DNA of 64,000 bases from Beroe forskalii. Lineage: Eukaryota > Ctenophora > Nuda > Beroida > Beroidae. Where the stretch lies: positions 124,001 to 188,000 of the forward strand of contig WFMF01000077.1 of NCBI GenBank assembly GCA_011033025.1. The letters are read 5' to 3'. Shown piece after piece: positions 19,891 to 36,353 of the stretch. A program made the translations under genes and the position numbers. Under the pieces are notes generated by a model. It made no database searches and was not told the DNA's origin. It saw nothing but the letters and a program-made list of their open reading frames with translations. Within the stretch, counting starts at the first letter, position 1; each line of letters starts with the position of its first letter.

Positions 19891-21766
19891 TCATTTCCTC
19901 CAGGAGAACTCCTTCTTGCAATAGCCCCTCTTAAAGGTTGGTTCTGCAGGGTAGCCCCGAGCCACCATCCTACACCTGTGAGCCTCTATCCGAGGTGCCA
20001 TGAAACCCACATCCTTGATGTAGGCTGCACTCCACAGCCTCTCAGCTGGAGCACTGGCTCGAGGCCAGGTTCTGTGCAGGGCGTTAGTGTTGTCCACGAA
20101 TTCACCCCACATGCAGATAGTTCCACCCAGGACCAGTTGCTGCTCCTCGTAGGTGGCACTGGCGTTGAAAGAGCGGGGGTCACACTGGTAGAACTTGGTC
20201 CAGTCACTGCCATAAGAAATTCTGTTCAGGTACCAACAGGACGATAAGATGGACCGGAAACCTGCTTTGGCAGCATTCGCGAGCACATTGTGCCAGTCGC
20301 CTTTCCAGGCGTGCACGATGGATTGCGGAGTTATGTCCACATGATGGTTGAAGACTTCCTCCCAAACGATGTAGTTCCTGTTGAGCGACTTCATGATGTC
20401 CAGGACTCTCTGCTCGTAGTAGTTCTCCAGGGCATCGTAATTACCAGTCATGTTGTGAGCTGCCATCCACGCGGTCACATTCTCATTATGTTGCCAGCAC
20501 CCGTAATGAACTTCATCCCCACCAAGGTGAACGAACTGGCCAGGGAAGAGCCCCGTGACTTCCTTGAAGAGTCGTCCCAGGACCGAGTAGACACCCTCGT
20601 TGGTAGGGTCCACAGGCCCATAGTCAGCCCCGATGTTGCCGTGTCCGGGGCAGTGGGTGAGGAAGCCGGGCAGGGCCTTGCCCCAGGAGAGGGTGTGTCC
20701 GGGGGTGTCGAGCTCCGGAATGACGAGGATGCCGTGTCTGTGAGCGAAGAGGACGATGTCCAGCACGTCCTCCTGCGAGTACACGTGGTTAGGGGAGAAC
20801 GCGCCCCGCGCACACAGCTCCGGGAACTCGGTGCTGCACAGGGGGAAGGAGGGGTCGTCCACGATGTGCCAGTGGAAGACGTTCAGCTTGGACCAGGAGG
20901 CTGCGGTGAGGAGATGCTTGAGCACCCCCACGCTCAGGTAGTGTCGGGAAGTGTCCAGCATGAGACCCCGGAACTTGTAGCGGGGGTAGTCCGTGATGTC
21001 CACTGGGGGCAGGGTGTAGTTGAGCGTGTTTACCAGCTGGGAGAACGTTTCCAGGCCTCGCATTGCTCCGAACACCGTGTCTGCCTGCAGAGAGGGGGGT
21101 CAGCACCCCACTATCAGCTGGTGTTTGAAGGGGGATCAGCACTATTAGCTGGTGTTTGAACCTAATCTCTACAGCGAGATAATGGAACTGACCTTCAAGA
21201 GGGCTGTATCTCGTGTCACTGTGAGAGTGTAGTTCTCACTGGTTTCCAACACCAGTTCCTCACTGGTGGACTTGACCTCCACCTGGAGGGACGGGAGGGT
21301 GGCTGGTAGCTCCTGTACGTAGTCATGGAGATTCAGGTACTTGTGGTACCTTCCAAACGCCTGCGGAGTGGTGCTTGTTAATGGGATGAAATAAATGTGT
21401 CATATTGATAGCAGATATGTCACCATGACTGTCTTTTGAAAGTAAGAAGGTGAATTAACAGGTGAACAGCAGCTGATTTCAAGGCCTTATAAGCAAATAG
21501 TTCAGAAAAAAATCATTCCATAAGGTTAACAGTAAACACTTATAAATAGAACAATAGAAAAATAGAAAAGGACTAACCTCCTGAAGTAGAATACTGTTTG
21601 AATGAGAAGTGAACTTGAAGCGGCGAGGGTCTATGACAGCAGGACTGCCCTCCAGAATATCTAAGTGCTGAGGGTAAGGCACCAAAGGGAGGAGGGGTGG
21701 GTTGCTTTGTAGAGATGTTGTCAATGTTGTCAGGAGACATACTGCCCCTAACAGAGGTAGTGTCAT
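19891..21766 (-). CDS. GH20 beta-hexosaminidase copy 2 (intact)
   Basis: Family GH20 enzymes remove terminal beta-linked GlcNAc or GalNAc from glycans and glycolipids, in lysosomes or after secretion. Exons: 21766-21578 (63 aa), 21360-21193 (56 aa) and 21084-19891 (397 aa plus TGA). All junctions are phase 0 with GT-AG ends, giving 516 aa, close to animal HEXA/HEXB length. Residues 1-20 form a signal peptide (MTLPLLGAVCLLTT...). A GH20b-type N-terminal domain is followed by the TIM barrel from about residue 120. Family landmarks are GLMLDTSRHYL, FHWHIVDD, the catalytic pair in HLGGDEV (about D309-E310), WEEVFN and MWGEFVDNTN. Three exons is few for this family. It lies tandem to, and is nearly identical with, the damaged copy at 15371-17557, and its start is 405 bp from the end of the GH35 gene on the same strand. 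Confidence 0.93.
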
Positions 21767-22171: not shown

Positions 22172-25100
22172 TTATTGTTGGGATGAATCGTACGGCCCGT
22201 CCACTAGTGGAGTATCAGTCAGGGATATAGTCTGGTTATTAGGAGCTCGTTCCAACTCGAACATCAGGAAATCTGTGGCTCCACCAGATGGCGATTTAGG
22301 GCAGTAGATACGTTTTTGTGGACCAGCCACGGGCCAGTATCTGAAAGTCATATGACTTTGATAATAGCGTCATCTTCGAATCTTGCAATCACACAATCCA
22401 AGGATGAGGAGAATAAAGGAACAATATACGGAAACTCCTGATACAGCGCATGAGAAGGTACTCAACTAACTAACCTGCCTAAGTTGAACCAGTCATCGAA
22501 CAAGACATTGATGTAGCCCTTGCCCCACCCTGGGGTGTCGATGTAGGTGTCATGGGACAGCCCGGACTCCAAAGTGCCGTAGTAGAAGGTGGGGATGTAC
22601 CCGTCAGCTCTAACTCCAGTGATCCTTTCTACAGAAGTACCGTGCTTCTTGAAGAGCTCACTCCAGGTTTCGCTGGAAAACGCGTTGCTGTCGTAGGGCC
22701 CTCGGGGCAGGACTTCGGAAATGAGGAATGCAGTCCAGTCTCTTAGTATCTGGTAGGTAGGAAGGTAGTTGTGATGCTCATAACTGGGGACAGACTTATA
22801 ACCTCAGACATTTTACCTCACGGCACTTCAGCTCTCTCCCCTGACCCTAACCAAAACCCCAACCTAACCCACACCCTTGACTCTAGCACTAACCATTGTC
22901 CTAATCCTGCCCAGTTGAGAATTCCTTTGGGGAAAATCAATGCTCTATGGGAAAAATCAATGTGTATTGAGATTTCCCATAGAAATCTCAATATGCATTG
23001 ATTTTTCCTATGGGAAAAATCAATGCTCTATGGGAAAAATCAATGTGTATTGAGATTTCCCATAGGATATTTCAATATGCATTGGCTTTTCCTATGGAGC
23101 TATGGGGAAAGTTTCAATGCTCTATGGGAAAAATCAATATGCATTGAGATTTCCCGTAGGATATTTCAATATGCATTGATTTTTCCTATGTGGGGAAAAT
23201 TTCAATGCTCTATGGGAAAAATCAATGTGAATTGAGATTTCCCGTAGGATATTTCAATATGCATTGATTTTTCCTATGGGGAAATTTCAATGCTCTATGG
23301 GAAAAATCAATGTGAATTGAGATTTCCCGTAGGATATTTCAATATGCATTGATTTTTCCTATGGGGAAAATTTCAATGCTCTATGGGAAAAATCAATGTG
23401 CATTGAGAATTCCCGTAGCGATATTTCAATATGCATTGATTTTTCCTATGCTTCATGGGAAAAATCAATGTGCATTGAGAATTCCTATAGGATATTTCAA
23501 TATGCAGTGATTTTTCCTGGGAAAATAATCTCATAATCCCCGTTTCTCATAATCAAAACTCCAATCTTTCGAAAATCTGCTCCAGTTCCGAGTTTTTCGT
23601 CTCCTCGACCGCGGAGGCTTCTAGAAAATACATCGACAAACGAAGACAGCGCCAAGAAAAATGAATGTTTCGTGTGGGTGTGTAAATGCTTAAATGTATG
23701 CGTGCCTCTTCCTCAACTGCTGAAATAAACGCGCGCGCAATTCTGCAGTACCAATGCGCCTCTTCCACAAAAACTTGCCTCCGTGCTAGTTAGCAGGTAT
23801 TCAGGAATTCGTCTTTCGTCTGACTTCGTAAATTCCAGTCGCATTTTGCCGTTTTGGTTGTGAGTTTTCCTCAGTTCTATCATATCCGTTAATTACTTAA
23901 TAATTACCAACTTTAACTTAAATTTATTTGTTATTTGATAGATTAAGTTAGAACTCAATCCGCTCCTTATTAAAACGAAGCAATATTTAGGTATATTTCT
24001 ATTAAGTATGGTCGAATAAAGCTTGCGGTCGAATAAATGGCCGCTAATTTATAGTTGCACTGTTGCAGTATCTCAGACCTCAGTATCATCATGGACGCAG
24101 GTATAAAGTAGGTAGGTGCATGGTGATTGGTGACGGTAGCCCAACTCATCACCTCAGACATTTCACCTCACAGCACTTTATCGCTCTCCCCTGACCTAAA
24201 ACATAACCCTAACCTAACCCAAACCTTTGACTCTAGCACTAACTCTTACCATAACACTAACCCAGACCTCAACCAATTCGTCTAAAGTTGAAATATCATA
24301 AGGTTCAGTGTCGTAGGTGAAAAAATTGAGGTGAAATGTCCCTCGGTGACACATATCTGGCCATTGGCAGTGACATTTCCGATAATTCCTTTCTGATAGT
24401 AGTTGTATGCGTATCTCACATGTCCAGTGTTGCTGTGACCTGATCCAAGTTACTTCATTATACCTTATTGGCCTTTATTTAACCGGCCCTTAAGGACAAA
24501 AATGACTTAGAGATTTTTGTCCTAAGGGCCGGTTAAAAAAAGGCCGGTTAAAATGGGGCCGGTCAAATTAAAAAAGGCCAGTCAATTTAGGTCAAATGAA
24601 ACTTTTTTGACTTGCCTTTTATTCTCGTGAACGTCATTATATAACACGATAATGACCTAAATCATCATATAAGATCGGGATTTGGGTCTTTTGGTGCAAT
24701 TTATTAAGTATAAATGGGTTTTATAATGGCCATTTTAGAGCAAAAAATCCTTGGTCTGGTGACCACTAGAAAAAATTTTGTCCAAGGGGCCGGCTAAAAC
24801 GGTTCAAAATTGATTCGATTTTTGTCCATAGGGCCGGTTAAAAAAAGGGCCGGTTAAAAAGGCCGGCTAAATAAAGGCCAATAAGGTAAGTTAGTAAAGT
24901 AGTAAGATTACGTTATAGTTATATTCATTACTGTGCCTAGATAATAATGACTTGATGGATTCTGAAAATTATACAGATTCTCTTATCTTAAAAGCTTGAA
25001 CAGTACAAAACCTCAGACTTTATGATCTATGGCAGGTATTTCAAATTCAAAGGACAATGATTTAAATAAGAGTAACTAAATTTTAAGAGTAACTAAATAA

Positions 25101-28100
25101 GAGTAAATAATTCATTTACCATTGTCTTCGACTAGAATAGTGAGTTCTGCTTCGTTCACAGTGAAAGTTTTGGGGGGTCTGTTTCTCGAGTTCATCTGGA
25201 CCTCGCCGGACTTTGAAATCACGTATATCCTGAGGTTTAATCGATATTCTAACCAAAACTCCTGGATCAATCATATAACTTTTAAACAACATGAGTTGGA
25301 CTGGGATCAAAATATTGCACTCAGTATATTCTTATCCTATTATGACTGTTGAAAGTATGGATGATTACATTTCACAAAGTTTTAGAAGGCCTATTTACTT
25401 ATTTATTATGATTTTTTAAGATTCTTGGAAGTAAAATGCGACCATTTGCAGTTACAATAGTTCAATCTGACCTTATTACATGTTTATCGCTCATTCATAG
25501 TTTAAATTAAGTAGTTATTATTTAGTAAGTTAATGCACCTGTTCTCTCAACAACATCGTAATATTTTATTAAAAATTGAGCCATTTTAAATTACTCTTCT
25601 CATAAATTCTGATAATCATAATATGCTCGTATTTTTGGCGTCTTACTGATGCGAGAATGTTTTACACTTCATAAAAACATCATTGCCTATCATCGTCAAC
25701 TATTACTCTATTAAGTTAATCAATTATTAGTTAACTAATTAACTATCAAGATAGTTTTTCACCTGTCGCCAAACATTTCCACATTAATAGCAGCTGGTAG
25801 TGTGACTTGGTCTGGTAACTTGGTCTGATACAGAACTAATCCGTGGTTCTGAAAAGGGTTTGAATTACCTTATAGTATGTTTTGATCGGAAAATAATCAA
25901 ATATACCATCGACGATTGCTTAGCTGCCACAGTGATCAGTGACTGGCAAATTAATTAATTAGTTAACCACGAAAATGCGGAATTCTTCATCATTCTGTTC
26001 ATCACAAAATTAAAAAAAGAAAGAAGACACTCTTTGGTATTTGATAAAAGGGTACATCTTTAAGAGTCACAGACCTGGCCCATCTGTTCCATTGGCAGGG
26101 GGTAAAGTGTCTTGATGACGGACTCTGGCCACTTCTGAGGCATGATCTCTTCCACCAGAGTGAATATGTCGAAGCTGTGCCCCGTGATCACAGGTCCTGC
26201 TGCTACCTTCGTCGTGTTGGCTGGCACATCGTAAACCTTGCTGTAGTTGCTGAAAATATCATTCGAACGTTGTGATCGTCAATGAACCGTCGACCGATCA
26301 ACGATGCATCTTAAACTCCCCTGAAGCCCTGAAAACACCCTAAATTATAGTTTCCCAGGCGTACCCTCACGTCAAGGGCTTGTTGGGTGATGAAAGTTGA
26401 TACTCCAGACCCGCCTGACACTAGCTGTGAAACGCTTACGGTTCGGAAGGTCGAAGGTCCACCATCAAATCATCGATGGACAAACAGCTTGCATCTATAG
26501 GACTATTGCTTTCTAGCTAGACAAAAATGAGAAATAAATCTTCTTATTTTTACACTCCACGGCAGTGTACAATTATATTTATATTCATCTGTTCAATAAC
26601 TTCATGGTAAATCATACATTTCTAACTACAACTAATCATAGGCTACATATTTCCTGAAGATCTGACAGATAAGTTGTAGTAGGTAGAGTCAACATTGAGC
26701 AGTGTTATTCAAAGGCCAAAGATTGTCATGTAGGTACCCAAATAGCAATAAAAAAGGTAATATAAAGGGTTAGAGGGGCCGGGGGGGGGTGGCTGAACTC
26801 CAAGATTTTCAAAATTAAACTTTTTTAATAATTTTATCTTTTTTAACAAATTATCAGCTCTTTTTGATCATTTTCATTAGCTTTTTTAAAGCTAAAATAT
26901 CAGTCTAAAGCACTAAAACTACTCAATAAGTTTCTGGGGCCTCGCCCCCAGACCCCCAAGCTCCCAAGGAGGTGTCCTTCCACGTATTGGGCTCACGGCG
27001 CTCGCTCAGCTCAGCCCCCAAGTCTGAGAATTAAATTACGGCATTGAACCTTTGAATATGAAGGCATAAAACCCAAATAAAGAAATGTGTCACGTGTGAT
27101 TCAAGTCAAAACGCGAACGTGTTTTTTCAGTTTCTCCGAATTCATTGATGACAGACGATCTCCAGGATATTATAACTTTATAACTTCTCTGAACTTTATG
27201 CTTTTGTGGCAGCATTCAATGATCATAATGATCATAATGAAATTCAGCAGATCACCTTCATTTTATTTCCTTCTTTCCTTGGTTTGTGTGGTAGCTGGTG
27301 GTAGTTTGTACATTAGCTATAGGCACATTAGGTAGCTCTTTTGGCAGATGTTGACTTTGCAATCAGCGCCGATCAGCGCTGATCGGCGCTGATCGGCGGC
27401 ACCGCCAATCAGCGCTGATCAGCGCTGATTTTAGGCCATCAGCGCTGATCGGCGCTGATCATCGCTGATCAGCGCCGATCAGCGCCGACGACCGCCGATG
27501 AGAATTTTAAAATTTCCGATCGGCGCTGATCAGTGCTGATCGGCGGTGTCGCTGATCAGCGCTGATCGGGCCCGATCAACGCTGATCAGCGCCGATCGGC
27601 GGTGCATCGGCGCTGATCAGCGCTGATCGGCGTTGATTGCAAAGTCAACATCTGCCGCTCTTTTTGTAAGTTTGTTGGTTGTGAACCATCTGCGTTTGAT
27701 GCTATGAATGTTTTTCATCTCCAGAAACCCGGGATTAAGGGATCTTGATTCTTGCTTTTGTTAATGGACATATGAACTTATTACTGAATAAAAGAATTTA
27801 TGTCTAATGTATGTACTCTAGTAGCAGAGTGTGTATAATTTTTGAGCGATCGTTTCTATTTTGCGAGTTTGGTATTGCGGTAGAGGTGAGTAGCTGCTCA
27901 CTTATTATTACCTGTGCACAATTCCCATTTCACAGCGCCCGGACGAAAATATTCTCCTCAGTCCTCACAATAACCTGTTGTTAGCCCAGAGTACTTGTGG
28001 TTTTAATCAGGAATCAACCTATCATTAGCATCATTGTTCTCTTTTATTCATTGTAGTAAGTATGTTACTTGTTAATATGAATCTTACATTTTATAATTCT

Positions 28101-31100
28101 ATGAGGCATCACCATGCTTTTGTTGTATTTATTGTGTTAGTATTTACAAGGTAAAATATGAATGCTTATCTGAATGATGATTTTTTAGCTGTTCAGTTAG
28201 GTACTTATCCTTCCTTGCCAGTTGCCATAGAATGATACAATAAAGTTTCTGATTCGACGACGTTGTCCGTCTATTACCTCTGACTCTCTGACATGAGGTT
28301 GATCACCGAAGGTGCAAAGGTGGGGTCCAAATGTGGAACGTCGCACTGTGCGCGCAAGGGTACGGATTTCTGATAAGTGAATAGCTGTGATTACCTAATT
28401 AGGTTTGATTACCTGATAAGGTTTCTGAGCAGCTGGTATTTCCAGGTGGTATTCTACCTGATTAGGTTTCTGAGCAGCTGGTATTTCCAGGTGGTATCTC
28501 TTACCTGATTAGGTTTCTGAGCAGCTGGTATTTCCAGGTGGTATCTCTTACCTGATTAGGTTTCTGAGCAGCTGGTATTTCCAGGTGGTATCTCTTACCT
28601 GATTAGGTTTCTGAGCAGCTGGTATTTCCAGGTGGTATCTCCTACCTGATTAGGTTTCTGAGCAGCTGGTATTTGCAGGTGGTATCTCCTACCTAGTTAG
28701 GTTTTGTTGTGCTGGTATTTCCAGGTATCTCCTACCTGATTAGGTTTCTGAGCAGCTGGTATTTCCAGGTGGTATCTCCTACCTGATTAGGTTTCTGAGC
28801 AGCTGGTATTTCCAGGTGGTATCTCCTACCTGATTAGGTTTCTGAGCAGCTGGTATTTCCAGGTGGTATCTCCTACCTGATAAGGTTTCTGAGCAGCTGG
28901 TATTTCCAGATGTTATCTCCTACCTGATTAGGTTTCTGAGCAGCTGGTATTACCAGGAGGTATGTCTTACCTGATTAGGTTTCTGAGCAGCTGGTATTTC
29001 CAGGTGTTATCTCCTACCTGATTAGGTTTCTGAGCAGCTGGTATTTCCAGGTGGTATCTCCTACCTGATTAGGTTTCTGAGCAGCTGGTATTTCCAGGTG
29101 TTATCTCTTACCTGATTAGGTTTCTGAGCAGCTGGTATTTCCAGGTGGTATCTACTACCTGATTAGGTTTCTGAGCAGCTGGTATTTCCAGGTGGTATCT
29201 CTTACCTGATTAGGTTTCTGAGCAGCTGTATTTCCAGGTGGTATCTCCTACCTGATTAGGTTTTCTGAGCAGCTGGTATTTCCAGGTGGTACCTGATTAG
29301 GTTTCTGAGCACCTGATTAGGTTTCTGAGCAGCTGGTATTTCCAGGTGGTATCTCCTACCTGATTAGGTTTCTGAGCAGCTGGTATTTCCAGGTGGTATC
29401 TCCTACCTGATTAGGTTTCTGAGCAGCTGGTATTTCCAGGTGGTATCTCCTACCTGATTAGGTTTCTGAGCAGCTGGTATTTCCAGGTGGTATCTCCTAC
29501 CTGATTAGGTTTCTGAGCAGCTGGTATTTTCCAGGTATATCCTACCTGATTAGGTTTGAGCAGCTGGTATTTCCCTTTATTTCCCTTCCTGATTAGGTTT
29601 TAATGGTATTTGGGGAATCTCACCCATTTTGGTTTTTGAGATGGGATTTCCCCGGTTTTCCACCCGAAGGTTTCTCGATTTCCGGTGGATTCCTACCTGT
29701 TGGGTTTCGGGCCCCATATTTGGTGTTTTTCCCCTCCCCAGGGTCTGGGCTGGTTTTTAGGGGATTTCATGATTAGGTTTTGAGAGCGGGTTTTCCAGGT
29801 ACCCCCACCATGGGTTTCTGAAAAGGGTACAGGATTCCAGATTGGGGTTTTGGCACCCTTTTTCGGGGGATCCACCTTAGGTCTGAGCAGCGGATTTCCG
29901 GCTCCCACCGGGGTCTGGAGCGGTATGGGTATCTCACCAAAGGGTTTCTGAGCACCCTTTTTCCAGGACCCCCCCGAAAGGGTTTCGGGCGGGGGCCCCG
30001 TGGTTTCCCTCCCCAAGTTTCTGAGCACCCGGGCAACTACCTTCCTAATGCTAAGATAGGATTGCTACAAAAGTACAATGTGTGGATATTCTTAGTTACA
30101 AATCCTTGAGATACATCGGGCTTAATTGCTGAAATCAAGAAATAACTGAGGTTGAAGTCAGGGTGCGTTTGATATTCGTAACATAACCTTGATAAATTGA
30201 TGTGAAATTTTGTCTGATCCGTATCTATAGTTCTCTTGTTGATGTTAAGATGTTTAATTAGTCAAAATAGAATGATCATGATTATGAATCATGACTGCAT
30301 ATTTCATTCTCATTAGTGCATTGGTTCTTGGAAATCAAGAAGATCAGTTGTAGCTTGCTGCTTGCAAATATGCTCGTCAAATAACTCCGACCGCAACGAC
30401 AAATCACTGAAAATTTTCTGTATTTCTTGAAAATTTGCTTATTGTTGGTTCTGAGTCCCATCTGACTTTAAATTTACTTTAATTTGGCTGTTTCTTCTCG
30501 TTTTGCTTGATTTCTTAATACTGAAATCGCCAATTTGTTATAGAGACGATCTAGCATGTTTGGAAGGTCCAGATCAGTGTAACTTATAATCAAAATAATA
30601 ATTACCAGTTAAAGATTTAAATTTTAATGTGATGTATCAGAAAACCAGGCACACCCGCTTATTTGGCAGCCCTCCAGCCTATTTACGTTCAAAACCATTG
30701 TGAAATACATTCACAACCCCATATGTATCTCTCCACCCCCTGTAATTAGCTAATTAAGTGATTAGGAACAGCAGAGTACTTGGTCCATGCATCGGAAGCT
30801 TCTTGATGCCCTCTAATTGTGGTGGCATCTTCCAAAAACCGCTTATCATTGATATTCTGTCCTCGACGGTCCGATTATTTGCCCTATTTGGGTTTAAACG
30901 TTCATACCTGCTAAACGAAAACAAATACCTAAAATGAGTAAATTTGATAATTGAATGTGATGTCGGGCCGAAAATTGTTCTCGAAAAATTTCAATTTCTA
31001 GAAGAATATCTGACGTGATGAGGAGGTGGTTTTTAAGATAACTTGCATTGAGAAGATACCTGCATGTAAGCGAAGTTGGTGCCTCCATGGAACATGTACA

Positions 31101-34100
31101 TGCTGACACTGGCGGTCCGGTCATTGAACTCTAACACATCGTGCAGCCCTGCTGCTAGGTGCTCTGCTTTCGTCTGTAACACATCACCCGGTGTTAAAGC
31201 GTGTGTAGAAGCCAAAAGGGTAACACTATATGAGAATGATAGAATGTGGATGTCTGATTCAAAGTGGATGTTGATTGCTGTTTTTTAGAGCAATGGTCTC
31301 TGCTTATCTGCAGGTGACAAATGCATAATTTCAATAATATGCAGACAACCTACGTTCACTTCCTCTCATGATCTTCCATTGAGTGGTATCACAGAATGGA
31401 TTTTAGCCACTCTGCAAACCTCACCTTCGCGAAGCGGTGGCCCCAGTGGTCCAGCCAGCCACTGAAGAAAGCACTACACACAAAAGGGCCTCTCGGCTCC
31501 TGCTGCCTCTCAACTTTAAAATGATCCGAGACATTGCCACCCGACCCGAAGTTAACAGTCGAGTACAGACCCTCGATATTCCCACACTTTGCCAAAGCGT
31601 GGCTGAAATCAAAATTTTTGTATTAGAGTGGAATCATGCCATATTTCTTCTGCAACTCATACATAGTTAAGGTATGCTTTTATTGGGAATATTGAAGTTG
31701 ATAGGAAGATAGGGATACCATCTGTTCCTGCTCTGTGTTCCCTCTTGCTCTCTTGGCGGCTCACCTGTCTCCATCCACTGTCAAAAGGACAACGTGTTTG
31801 CCGAGATGTTGTCTGTAGATGTCTCGCAGTTGGTACAAGTAGTCGAAGTGAGCCTCGTCACAGGGTCGGTTGCTCCCAAACTCGTTCTCTACCTAAACAC
31901 AAGGAAATATTCCGTGAAGTTATTTTAACTTTCTTTTCTGATTTTAAAGGGGTTTTAAGGTTTTTTATTGGTTTCAGTTGAACGCTTCTTTTAGTCTGTT
32001 TTGATTTGTTCATTTATAATTTTGATTCATTATCAACTTCTCAACTTGTGCTTCTCTGATATGCATTACAGCATTATGAGAAACTCTGCTTGACATGCAG
32101 TATCATGACATACATGAGTATGTAATGTTTTGCAGGATGTACCGCATTTGCTTTACGCTCATTGTGCTAAGTCCATCACTAATTCTTGATACAATGATTC
32201 TGTGTATGCATTCAGAAATCATTTATTTTCGTGTTGCTATCTTTAAAATATTAAATTGTTTTTAGCTTTATAGTGATGATATCTCATGCTCGTATCCCTA
32301 ACCTCACTGTGTTGTAAAGAATAACATTAACCATAATCCTTCTAGTACAGACCTAATTCTCGCCACATCGAGTGTATGAAAGTGTGAAGGGTGATAGGTA
32401 CCTGCATCTTTTAAGCTAGCCCATACTCTTCAGATATTCCCTTTTGGGGGATTCTTGGACAATGGGTTATGGAATACCCTCTCCTTACCCCCCCATTTCA
32501 AGTTATTAAGTGATTGAAGACGCTATCGAGGTGAAATGGCGTTACATGCACTGCAAGGGTGAGGGTGGATATGACTATGAGATGAAGTGGGAGAGTATGC
32601 GAGGTGGAGTGGGGGATGAGGTGGAGTGAGGTGGGTATGCGAGGTGGAGTGGGGGATGAGGTGGAGTGAGGTGGGTATGAGATGGAGTGGGGGATGAGGT
32701 GAAGTGGGGTGGGTATGAGATGGAGTGGGGGATGAGGTGGAGTGAGGTGGGTATGAGATGGAGTGGGGGATGAGGTGGAGTGAGGTGGGTATGAGATGGA
32801 GTGGGAGAGTATGCGAGGTGGAGTGCGTATAAGGTGGAGATCGAGAGGGGTGGGTAATTGGGTATGAGGTGAAGTGGGGTGGGTATGAGGTGAAGTGGGG
32901 TGGGTATGAGATGGAGTGGAGTGGGTATGAGGTGGAGTGAGGTGGAGTGGGGATTAGAGACTGTGTAGGTGTACTCACCTGCACTGCAATGATGGGTCCT
33001 CCCTCGTGGTAAAGGTATGGGACCAGGGTGGGAAGCAGCTTCGCGTACCACTTCCTAACTTCCCCCATGTAAACTGTCTCGTTACGTCTCACGCTGCGAT
33101 AATATAGGGGTGATTTGTTTCTTTAAATTTAAATGAAATCTTAAGATCTTAGCAAGCAGCTGATTGCCAAGAATCAAAGGAGCCATTTCAGTATTTTACT
33201 TGCTTGAATCTTCGCAGTCACTGCAAGAGCAGCTCCTTTAGCTACTGATCAAACCGTAGTATATTGGTTCACTGACTCGCCGTTTGATCAGTTTAGAATC
33301 CTCTGCGTCTGACGGAAATTTAGGTGCATCATTGCACCTCATCGTATTCTTTGACTTTGGCATATTTCTTTCTTCCGTCGTCAGTAATATGAGCTATCGG
33401 TACTGCTAAACTTCAATAGAGGCTCATTTGATAAATTCTGTTAACCTTGTTTAGTCGTTCCATTCCTTCCACGTCACTATTGCATTCTCAGGTTTCGTAC
33501 ATGCTCAAGAGCTACTCTAGTTTATGGCCAAAATCATTTACTATATTCATCGTTTTTGTCCTACAAATTGTATTCTTGTTTATGGACTATATGGTTAACT
33601 CGTGATTTTCGTAGTTTTGCGCGTAAAACGTCGACGTCCAAATTCCCAATCCTATTACCTAAATATCCTGTTCAGTTATGATTATCAACAATTGCGAGTT
33701 TAAAGTTGCAATTGAAAACATTTACAAATTGAGAAATAAAGCAAATTCAACTGTTTGCTGCAATGAATCACAATGCGACTGTTATAAGTAGTATTGGTAA
33801 GAGTGCTGTATACCTTACTCGAGGGTAGGTCTATCTTTGAGGAGCCATCCCGGGAAGCCACCATAGTCCCACTCAGTAGCCAGGAAGGGGCCAGGTCTCA
33901 CAATGACCGTGAGGCCGAGTTTCCAGGCTGTTTCCAGGTACCGGTACACGTCCGCTATCCCTTCAAAGTTGTAAACGTCTTCGCGGGGTACGTGCACATT
34001 CCAGGGGATGTACCTGTAACATTCCTGTAACATTCCACGGTGTGTACCTGTTAGATACCACGATATGTACCTGTAACATTCCTGTTACAAACCTGTAACG

Positions 34101-36353
34101 TACCTGTTACATACCATGGTATGTACCTGTTACATACCTGTAACATACCACGGTATGAACCTGTAACATTGTTTTTTGAAGGTTTTACTTCTATCCCAAC
34201 AGCCGTACAGCCAATGGCAGGAATCGAAGAATCCGAGTGTAATCAAGCCAGTGACGGTTAAGGAAGTGTAATCTATATTATTCCGCCCGAGACTTCGCAG
34301 TATTTGGCAAGCTTCTCATTTAACCGTCCCCTGCACAATTTCCTGTACGCTCGGCTGAGTGGACCGCGTGGCAGCATAGGCTTGAGAAACCTAGGTATCT
34401 TTCACCCTTAGGCAGGGAATAAGCACGGGATCTTCCGATCACGAGTCAGACTTGATACCATTACACAGGCTGACCACTCATACCTGTAACATACCTGTAA
34501 CATTCCACCTGCAGCAATCCTTACGTGTTACAATAATTCCGGGGATCGAAATTTTCGTGGTTCGAAATTTGGGATATTTTCAAGAATATTTCGCATTTGG
34601 ATGAAGACGTCATATTGAAATTTTGTGAGGAATGAAAATATGGGGATTTCAAAAAATAAAAATGTCTCGTGAGGTACCTGACACGACACATATTATTGTG
34701 TTTCACTGTTTCATGCCCCGAAGATCGCATGGGACTCGACTGTACACGGCCCCCTAAATTCTAAGTTTTCAAAGCTTTTCAGAAAAATTTGAGGGGGTGG
34801 CTTCATAGGCCCCTATGCTTCTTTGCACAGAACATCTGTGTAATTGCGTTGATCACGCGTGTAAGGTCTTGAATGTGAGTACTTCAATGTAAATTGAGAT
34901 AGAGCAAAATTTTGATCGCATGCTTTGAGCACGAAATTTAAGCTGAATGTCAAATTCTTTGTAATGCCCCGGCCCCTAAATTGCTGGAAAGTGTAAATTC
35001 CTCAAAGAAGCTATTTCGGCCGCAATTCTGATTACGATAACGTTGTGTCTAGAATGAGGTATATTGAGAAAAAAGTTCAAACTCATAGTTTCTCTACACG
35101 CTCGTAAGTTTTTTCTCTGTTTTGTTCAACAACAGCTGATTATTGCTTCGATTTTACGCGCTGTATAAGGATGTTAAAACACAATAAAAACTTATCGTAT
35201 TGCTACAAAGAATCATCCGAATTGATTCTTTTATTTCTACTACCAACCCTCGATCTCGCAAGACACACTTATACACTCAGACAGTGACTGAGTGTATGTC
35301 ACTCATAGTCCAAGGGCGGTGTCCACGGGCAGAATCCGCGAGCGTCAACCAGTGGACCTTTTTCAGTGCAATGAGCTCCATCAGTAGCTCTGATGCTAGC
35401 CTTGCTAGAAGTCCAAGGGAATCGCTTCTTGCATGCAATTGCCCACGTCTGCACGATATTAGGATAATAGTAATAAATGCCCTGTTGAGACTGATTGGGT
35501 GACTCAGGCAATACTACGGGCCCGTGATATGATCAGGACACAGCAGGATGCATCAGCATGTGATATTTTCAGGACATGCAGCACTACGTCAGCACACTTC
35601 GAGTACGCCTGGGCACTCCGATTCTACGCTTCTTAATTTTTTCCAACACCTAAACCTTGAAAAGTAAACGGCCCTCATATCATGGTGGACTCCGCCTGTG
35701 GAATCCACGAGTGGACCAAAATCCGCTGGAGGAGTCCACTGACTCCGCGGCGAACTTTACTTCATGAAGATCTTAATCTGCGGCGGAATATTTTGGTGCG
35801 CGGCGGACTGTGAGCGGACCCGCAGCAGATCCACCACTCCGCGGCGGACTCTCGAAAACTGCGCTTAAAGTCCGCCAAAAAATTATGGATGACTTTAGTG
35901 GAGTCCGCAGCGGGCTGAAGTCCACCAATTTTTTAGCTTTCTGAAACACTCACGTTTGTACGGTAGTAAAGCCGGCCGCCCTGAGCTTGAGCAGCCTATC
36001 TTCCCAGTACTGAGGGTGTATTCTGAAGTAATGCATCTCTCCGGCTATGTAGCGGTAACATGAGCCGTCCCTCAGGTAGCAGTCTTTCTGGAAGTGGGGG
36101 CAAAGTGGGGTTAAAGTTTAAATGATGGTATTCGCTGTGGGAATAATTAGCTAGAATTGTGATCAAGCTATTGAGAATTCGAAAACCTGACCATTTGAAC
36201 GTATTCTCTCGAAATGGAACATATTTTCTCGTAGTATCTGATCTATCTATCAGCTACCTTGTAGTCTATCTTGAAAGTTGGAGCTTTACCCTCACTCCAA
36301 AGAATAAGGGCTGCCGCAAGTACTATTGCTGACACCAGTCTTGATAGAATCAT
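22172..36353 (-). CDS. GH35 beta-galactosidase homologue, 14 exons, catalytic nucleophile missing
   Basis: Exons (high to low): 36353-36258, 36087-35954, 34013-33819, 33093-32979, 31892-31765, 31602-31425, 31173-31060, 30856-30780, 26249-26075, 25848-25763, 25229-25120, 24439-24357, 22749-22475, 22340-22172. Phases agree at every junction and give 644 aa plus TAA. Residues 1-23 are a signal peptide. GH35 landmarks in order: [54 protein letters not shown] (acid/base Glu, about residue 184), [22 protein letters not shown]-like [12 protein letters not shown], and the C-terminal jelly-roll block [10 protein letters not shown]...FNLGRYW. The nucleophile motif N-S-E-F-Y reads C-S-A-F-F (Ala267, codon 31472-31470). 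The YDYDAPLSEAGD loop reads [11 protein letters not shown] (exon 8). The exon 12 donor lacks GT. The family hydrolyses terminal beta-galactose; I infer this copy cannot do so by the usual mechanism. Exon 8, found by phase and a short match, is the least certain. Confidence 0.88.
22795..22925. mobile_element. Partial copy of a MITE (CACCTCAGACATTT family)
   Basis: ACCTCAGACATTTTACCTCA followed by CTCTCCCCTGACC, AACCTAACCCA and TTGACTCTAGCACTAAC matches 24151-24270 closely. The right end is missing because an 84-bp repeat array starts here. It lies in intron 12 of the GH35 gene. Confidence 0.7.
22925..23525. repeat. Tandem array of about 84 bp made of inverted half-units
   Basis: Each unit has CTATGGGAAAAATCAAT, then ATTGAGATTTCCCGTAGG, then TTCAATATGCATTGATTTTTCC. 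The first and last parts are mutual reverse complements, so each unit can fold on itself. About seven copies are present. The array lies in intron 12 of the GH35 gene. Confidence 0.9.
24147..24350. mobile_element. MITE abutting exon 12 of the GH35 gene
   Basis: The left end TCACCTCAGACATTTCACC and the right end GGTGAAATGTCCCTCGGTGA (24330-24349) are imperfect inverted repeats about 200 bp apart. The inside contains AACCCTAACCTAACCC and matches 22795-22925. Its right end is only about 6 bp from the last base of GH35 exon 12 (24357), where the splice donor should be. Confidence 0.75.
24473..24886. mobile_element. TA-flanked MITE in GH35 intron 11
   Basis: CCTTATTGGCCTTTATTTA at the left end is inverted at the right end (TAAATAAAGGCCAATAAGG), and each end is bordered by TA. 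Inside, GGGCCGGTTAAAA recurs on both arms. The TA duplication fits Tc1/mariner-type transposition, and no transposase is present. Confidence 0.9.
27343..27656. mobile_element. hAT-type MITE with an 8-bp target-site duplication
   Basis: Perfect ends GGCAGATGTTGACTTTGCAA and its reverse complement enclose about 260 bp built from GATCAGCGCT and GATCGGCG decamers, themselves palindromic. The identical octamer GCTCTTTT flanks both ends (27335-27342 and 27657-27664). Eight-bp duplications are typical of hAT elements. It lies in intron 8 of the GH35 gene. Confidence 0.92.
28390..29590. repeat. 47-bp minisatellite in GH35 intron 8
   Basis: About 25 tandem copies of a unit containing TACCTGATTAGGTTTCTGAG and CAGCTGGTATTTCCAGGTGG. 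Copies are highly uniform up to about 29540, with a few short or slipped units. Confidence 0.95.
29590..30035. repeat. Abruptly corrupted tail of the 47-bp array
   Basis: Words of the 47-bp unit (GATTAGGTTT, GGTTTCTGAG, TTTCCAGG) persist at roughly the right spacing, but most bases are replaced by G, C or T runs such as GGGGATTT, CCCCCACC and CCCTTTTTCC. The sudden change suggests poor consensus rather than normal repeat ageing. Confidence 0.6.
30040..30779. other. GH35 intron 8, unique part
   Basis: Between the repeat tail and exon 8 I see AT-rich sequence without exons, repeats or RNA genes. Confidence 0.5.
32560..32955. repeat. Purine-rich 38-bp tandem repeat in GH35 intron 4
   Basis: Units of about 38 bp such as GGGTATGAGATGGAGTGGGG and GATGAGGTGGAGTGAGG run to within about 20 bp of the exon 4 donor (32978). 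The Pro/His/Ser-rich minus-strand frames across it are repeat artefacts continuing from exon 4. Confidence 0.9.
34009..34172. repeat. Repeats derived from a splice-acceptor sequence
   Basis: TACCTGTAACATTCC-like units (also ACCTGTTACATACC) occur about ten times from the exon 3 acceptor outward, and resume at 34480-34510 beyond a SINE. On the minus strand each unit reads GTTACAGGTA, the same word used as the exon 3 acceptor. Confidence 0.85.
34178..34475 (-). mobile_element. tRNA-derived SINE, second copy
   Basis: The body matches 16620-16918 closely: GGTTTTACTTCTATCCCA, AATCAAGCCAGTGACGGTTA, ACGCTCGGCTGAGT. The tRNA-like head (A box about TGTGTAATGGT) is more decayed and the B box is damaged. 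It is inserted within the CCTGTAACAT repeat array in GH35 intron 2. Confidence 0.8.
35680..35940. mobile_element. Inverted-repeat element rich in GGAGTCC / GTCCGC
   Basis: GTGGACTCCGC, CGGCGGACT and AGTGGAGTCCGCAGCGG recur on both strands, and GTCCACC...GTGGACT words face each other across about 250 bp. It is probably a foldback element, with undefined ends, in GH35 intron 2. Confidence 0.5.

Follow-up and report, generated by a model that had tools for sequence, protein, structure and literature searches.

In the retaining hydrolysis carried out by GH35 enzymes, a nucleophile is required to form the galactosyl-enzyme. For human β-galactosidase (GLB1), an excerpt of PMC7504770 gives Glu268 as this nucleophile and also names Glu129, Asn187 and Glu188. 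There, Asn187 holds the 2-OH of the ligand, as does Glu268, and Glu129 holds the 4-OH and 6-OH; the human numbering used in our analysis (129, 187, 188, 268) agrees with these residues. A GH35-derived protein that does not cleave is also on record: part of PMC2959015 describes the elastin-binding protein (EBP), which is spliced from GLB1, has no enzyme activity and contains a galactolectin domain. Here we describe two genes of the ctenophore Beroe forskalii in which the nucleophile of a GLB1-like protein is replaced by alanine in the genomic sequence itself.

The window, by which we mean the whole 64,000-nucleotide stretch analysed (contig WFMF01000077.1, positions 124,001 to 188,000), contains a GH35 gene on the minus strand, running from an ATG at 36353 to a stop codon ending at 22172. 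Thirteen of the 14 expected exons could be placed (Table 1). All are open, and they join in matching phase across introns that begin with gt and end with ag; exon 6, which carries the substitution, is flanked by ag and gtgagg and connects to exons 5 and 7 without a break in phase. Homology of the product to GLB1 is full-length (E about 1e-120 to 1e-128 in a search of solved sequences). A second gene, on another contig of the same genome (C577; L013 3803-7543), consists of three exons with gt/ag borders and encodes 683 aa with no stops. Both proteins contain all the GH35-type Pfam domains, with PF01301 catalytic-domain matches of 301 bits for the window protein and 319 bits for C577 (cut-off 27), and with PF21317 (all-beta) and PF21467 (galactose-binding domain) above their cut-offs. 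The window protein also fits the PROSITE pattern PS01182, quoted in a section of PMC3103743 as G-G-P-[LIVM](2)-x(2)-Q-x-E-N-E-[FY], and the C577 protein mismatches it at the final position. Directly downstream of the window gene and on the same strand lies a GH20 β-hexosaminidase (19894-21099, minus; PF00728, E 6e-83); the two neighbouring genes both encode glycosidases of lysosomal type.

Table 1. Placed exons of the window GH35 gene and the repeat features in its introns (positions are those of the window)
Feature	Position	Strand	Remarks
Exon 1	36258..36353	-	Start codon; hydrophobic N-terminus, signal-peptide-like by eye; open frame, donor gtagct
Exon 2	35954..36087	-	ag/gt borders; alignment to GLB1
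Exon 3	33819..34013	-	Glu129 kept; Ile126->Leu, Cys127->Ala; GLB1 alignment
Exon 4	32979..33093	-	Borders and GLB1 alignment
Exon 5	31765..31892	-	VENE with acid/base Glu (human Glu188)
Exon 6	31425..31602	-	Ala codon GCT at 31472-31470 in place of nucleophile Glu268
Exon 7	31060..31173	-	Borders and GLB1 alignment
47-bp minisatellite	28410..29574		Intronic array; minus-strand unit ends in gtagga donor and resembles exon 8 3' end
Garbled continuation of 47-bp array	29575..30046		Read by eye
Exon 9	26075..26249	-	Borders and GLB1 alignment
Exon 10	25763..25848	-	Borders and GLB1 alignment
Exon 11	25120..25229	-	Borders and GLB1 alignment
Exon 12	24351..24439	-	Weak donor gtcacc; border picked to preserve phase
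Exon 13	22475..22749	-	Borders and GLB1 alignment
Exon 14	22172..22340	-	Includes stop codon

Ala267 of the spliced window product aligns with Glu268 of human lysosomal GLB1 (PDB entry 3thc). The alignment thus confirms what the first-pass annotation had read from the sequence, namely that the nucleophile is lost, that the acid/base Glu is kept and that the neighbouring Asn and Tyr are altered (Asn266->Cys and Tyr270->Phe). All ten other sequences aligned have Glu at the nucleophile position, whereas the window gene and C577 have Ala, and both of these retain the acid/base Glu. A hidden alternative exon that would restore the Glu was sought by a six-frame scan of the whole window, in which exon 6 was the sole match of GH35 nucleophile type; in C577 such an exon is rejected because the nucleophile region is one uninterrupted open frame.

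The two genes share the substitution but have otherwise moved far apart. Alanine is encoded by GCT in the window gene and by GCC in C577, and the proteins are 54% identical across 610 aligned residues, with 16 of the 17 residues around the nucleophile site the same in both. Fourfold sites agree at only 36% of 151 positions and the same codon is used at 48% of 314 conserved residues (Met and Trp left out) against 39% expected from codon usage, suggesting that synonymous change is near saturation. A codon model nevertheless rejects omega=1 for the pair (2 delta lnL 283). This test is pairwise and does not apportion constraint to each separate branch, and because dS runs to its boundary the point estimate of omega is meaningless.

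DNA identity in the nucleophile motif is 88%, compared with 63-64% in the flanks, and gene conversion was considered as the source of the shared motif. The longest identical nucleotide run between the genes is 17 nt, and the motif's codon identity of 10/14 is attained in 23 of 301 windows. Conversion thus has little support from these comparisons, though a short tract may have been converted. Both introns of C577 interrupt stretches that are continuous in the window gene, and by eye C577 has no intron at any site where the window gene has one; by this inspection C577 looks like a retrocopy with later intron gain.

To place the pair among its relatives, the genome was searched with PF01301, giving 36 matches, which we assign to some twelve GH35 loci. 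At ten of these we saw the nucleophile exon, with Ala in the window gene and C577 and Glu in the other eight; it was not found at the C314 and C164:325k loci. Searches with window exons 6-7 (12 matches) and with the C577 stretch (11 matches) returned only loci already seen, and again Ala occurred only in C577 and the window gene. Solved sequences gave 27 matches, and each of the five alignments seen (7kdv, 3wez, 3thc, 3wf3 and 4mad) has Glu. An unrooted tree (LG+G4 with ultrafast bootstrap) was built from 12 sequences, of which C880:15k is partial, with 171 positions aligned to human. In it the window gene and C577 fall on one side of a split with 98% support, all eight own-genome and both solved comparators having Glu. 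C200, one of these own-genome comparators, carries the nucleophile exon in two forms, both with Glu, of which one entered the tree.

This comparison of GH35 genes covers one genome plus solved structures. Beyond it, a narrow pattern for the Ala form gave no stretches in the prokaryote set (genome_contigs) or in viral_contigs. A broader pattern gave nine stretches in genome_contigs, none of them GH35-like when their translations were read by eye; the genome_contigs scans had no positive control, and the 4mad motif fits the frame of the broad pattern with Glu replacing Ala. In viral_contigs the broader pattern and a Glu-form control both gave 0, so the viral scans say nothing. Among the matches listed in a search of the open-licence literature, we found no nucleophile-less GH35 gene.

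The other GH35 loci of the genome show variation of their own. C200 (L011 5216-3932) carries two consecutive versions of both the nucleophile exon (NSEYY, NSELY) and the next exon (GGTNF, GGSTF), which are perhaps alternative exons. Glu268 is kept at C447 (L012), where Glu129 is replaced by Gly, and at C268 (L010), with Trp273->Lys and Asn313->Thr. C425 (L017) holds three near-identical tandem GH35 genes, each an uninterrupted frame of about 650 aa, although others in the genome have many introns.

The mitochondrial contig of the same genome (C1134, 13,339 bp) was also inspected. Its cox1 reads through under table 4 and under three other mitochondrial tables tried. Among eight other frames, four match the cob, nad1, cox2 and nad4-like families and four, including frames of 313 and 368 aa, have no Pfam match; none of the eight matched atp6, and no tRNA was detected on the contig by ARAGORN under the bacterial code. 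According to an excerpt of PMC6991124, sequenced ctenophore mitochondria are without tRNAs, atp6 and atp8; in the mitochondrial genome of Beroe forskalii it notes two large unidentified frames. Taken by themselves, these features point to a probable ctenophore host, perhaps one close to Beroe.

How far the sugar pocket has been kept bears on what these proteins might do. Tyr83, Glu129, Asn187, Glu188, Trp273 and Tyr306 are kept in both the window protein and C577, and Tyr331 and Tyr333 are kept in C577. Altered in both are Ile126 (to Leu), Cys127 (to Ala in the window protein, Asp in C577), Tyr189 (to Phe and Ala, respectively), Asn266, Glu268 and Tyr270. At columns invariant in the other sequences, changes number 10/49 in the window protein and 8/53 in C577. 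Leave-one-out counts for the eight own-genome comparators are 0/53 for each C425 copy, which have near-twins in the set, and 1/24, 3/56, 5/58, 7/59 and 7/60 for the others, with 3/56 for human and 10/63 for 4mad. The pair has thus diverged somewhat further than its Glu-bearing paralogues, with several of the changes at the active site. Since two of the three sugar anchors remain, it is plausible that galactosides are bound without being cleaved. Given the drift at Ile126, Cys127, Tyr189 and Tyr270, galactose may no longer be accommodated in the pocket.

The exon that could not be placed is exon 8. Human GLB1, 4mad and the GH35 proteins of this genome carry SYDYDAP, or something close to it, in this stretch (Tyr331/333), and a six-frame motif scan of the window found no exon of this type. 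Nor was a detached piece found in the assembly, all six matches of the C577 stretch being C577 itself and five other GH35 genes. The 47-bp minisatellite offers a trace of it. When compared with the exon 8 end of three GH35 references, the repeat unit scored 47 (C577), 42 (human) and 36 (C880:15k), with maxima of 28, 23 and 32 in 400 dinucleotide shuffles per reference, so that 0/400 reached the match each time. Because the unit beats all shuffles for all three references, the array probably arose by amplification of the 3' end of exon 8 together with its splice donor, and the phase of this donor would be the one that exon 9 requires. The garbled continuation of the array is probably poor consensus sequence, and the beginning of exon 8 may have disappeared within it. 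A draft product of 646 aa had used 30856-30780 as exon 8; this was rejected as its translation is unlike GH35, whereas the 47-bp unit resembles it. With exon 8 absent from the assembly, the window copy cannot be called intact, and the intact 644-aa product of the first-pass annotation is not established. An intron of the gene also contains, at 27362-27637, some 275 bp of short GATCGGCGCTGATC-like repeats that on inspection look mostly self-complementary.

These observations can be accounted for in several ways. The missing exon, its seemingly amplified 3' end and the weak exon 12 donor would all suit a window copy that is a decaying pseudogene, its exon 8 destroyed by the minisatellite and C577 alone still working. 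Yet the remaining 13 exons are all open, keep phase and have gt/ag borders, and because the sequence next to the array looks garbled, a fault of assembly may underlie the gap; we consider decay unlikely. The same garbled sequence, 1.4 kb from the Ala codon, might raise the suspicion that the codon itself is a sequencing or assembly error. Two base changes would be required, however, and a second gene on another contig has the same Ala by a different codon, which excludes error in practice and leaves it a negligible probability.

Other readings accept the substitution and differ over function. The same genome has at least eight GH35 genes that carry Glu268, and part of PMC6549527 reports that inactive GH28 proteins of beetles share a pathway with active ones; the Ala proteins could likewise be partners or decoys of the active paralogues (as stabiliser, dimer partner or substrate sink), with sugar binding secondary. 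Against this, the distance of the pair to its other paralogues in this genome is about the same as its distance to human GLB1, and such a role seems to us doubtful. It is very improbable that catalysis persists by another route, relying on a different residue, on the substrate or on water within the Ala cavity. Glu188 and Asn187 are kept in both genes and the nucleophile site is nearly identical between them, which speaks for such a route, but the sole new nucleophilic side chain nearby is Cys266. It was rejected as a replacement nucleophile because 4mad, also a GH35 protein, has Cys there beside a normal Glu, so Cys266 represents no special gain. We give a similarly slight chance to new chemistry in the old pocket, for which an ancient animal GH35 lineage would have given up its nucleophile: a transfer or an inverting reaction that acts on galactosides, needs no nucleophile and is served by the retained acid/base Glu and a motif strand that has hardly changed.

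The reading that we favour, with some confidence, is that the window gene and C577 form a GLB1-like GH35 pseudoenzyme lineage that lost its nucleophile once, has since been under purifying selection and is likely to bind galactosides. Its parts are of unequal strength. That a maintained, nucleophile-less GH35 lineage exists is very likely. The shared Ala, the 98% grouping, the Glu elsewhere and the constraint together point to a loss that probably happened once and long ago, with purifying selection acting since. Glu268 would have changed to Ala once, before the window and C577 genes separated, and both genes would have been retained under purifying selection since. With Ala in place of the nucleophile, two-step retaining hydrolysis of β-galactosides should fail, and catalytic activity on these substrates would be lost. 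The protein, secreted or lysosomal, would then most likely hold terminal β-galactosides uncut, in the manner of a lectin, chaperone or cofactor. The pseudoenzyme reading of the first-pass annotation is in this way backed, at the level of sequence, by C577, which is uninterrupted, deeply diverged and has the same Ala, and by the pairwise purifying selection. The annotation is thereby partly supported; secretion remains putative, suggested by the N-terminus that looks hydrophobic by eye, and a lectin-like nature likewise, suggested by the sugar-pocket residues retained. If true, an early-branching animal encodes in its genome, and has long maintained, a GH35 protein that has no nucleophile; its genome, with two diverged Ala copies alongside Glu paralogues, then offers a case in which the turning of an enzyme into a binding or regulatory protein can be tested.

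In comparison with known systems, the proteins resemble GLB1 (3thc, 7kdv) in full-length homology, the acid/base Glu and several sugar-contact residues, and differ from it in the Ala at Glu268 and in the changes at Ile126, Cys127, Tyr189, Asn266 and Tyr270. Should nucleophile-free GH35 chemistry occur here after all, it would be a natural counterpart of engineered glycosynthases. Heparanase 2, Klotho and the chitinase-like lectins are likewise GH relatives retained without catalysis, belonging to other GH families and having different roles. The beetle GH28 pseudoenzymes, as presented in part of PMC6549527, share with the present pair the retention of non-catalytic GH relatives, again in another family and with different roles. 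EBP is the closer likeness, being both GH35-derived and inactive, as the window and C577 proteins are predicted to be. It arises from an active GLB1 gene when exons 3, 4 and 6 are skipped, whereas here the loss is encoded in the gene: the substitution lies within a genomic exon, and in C577 the corresponding region is a single uninterrupted frame.
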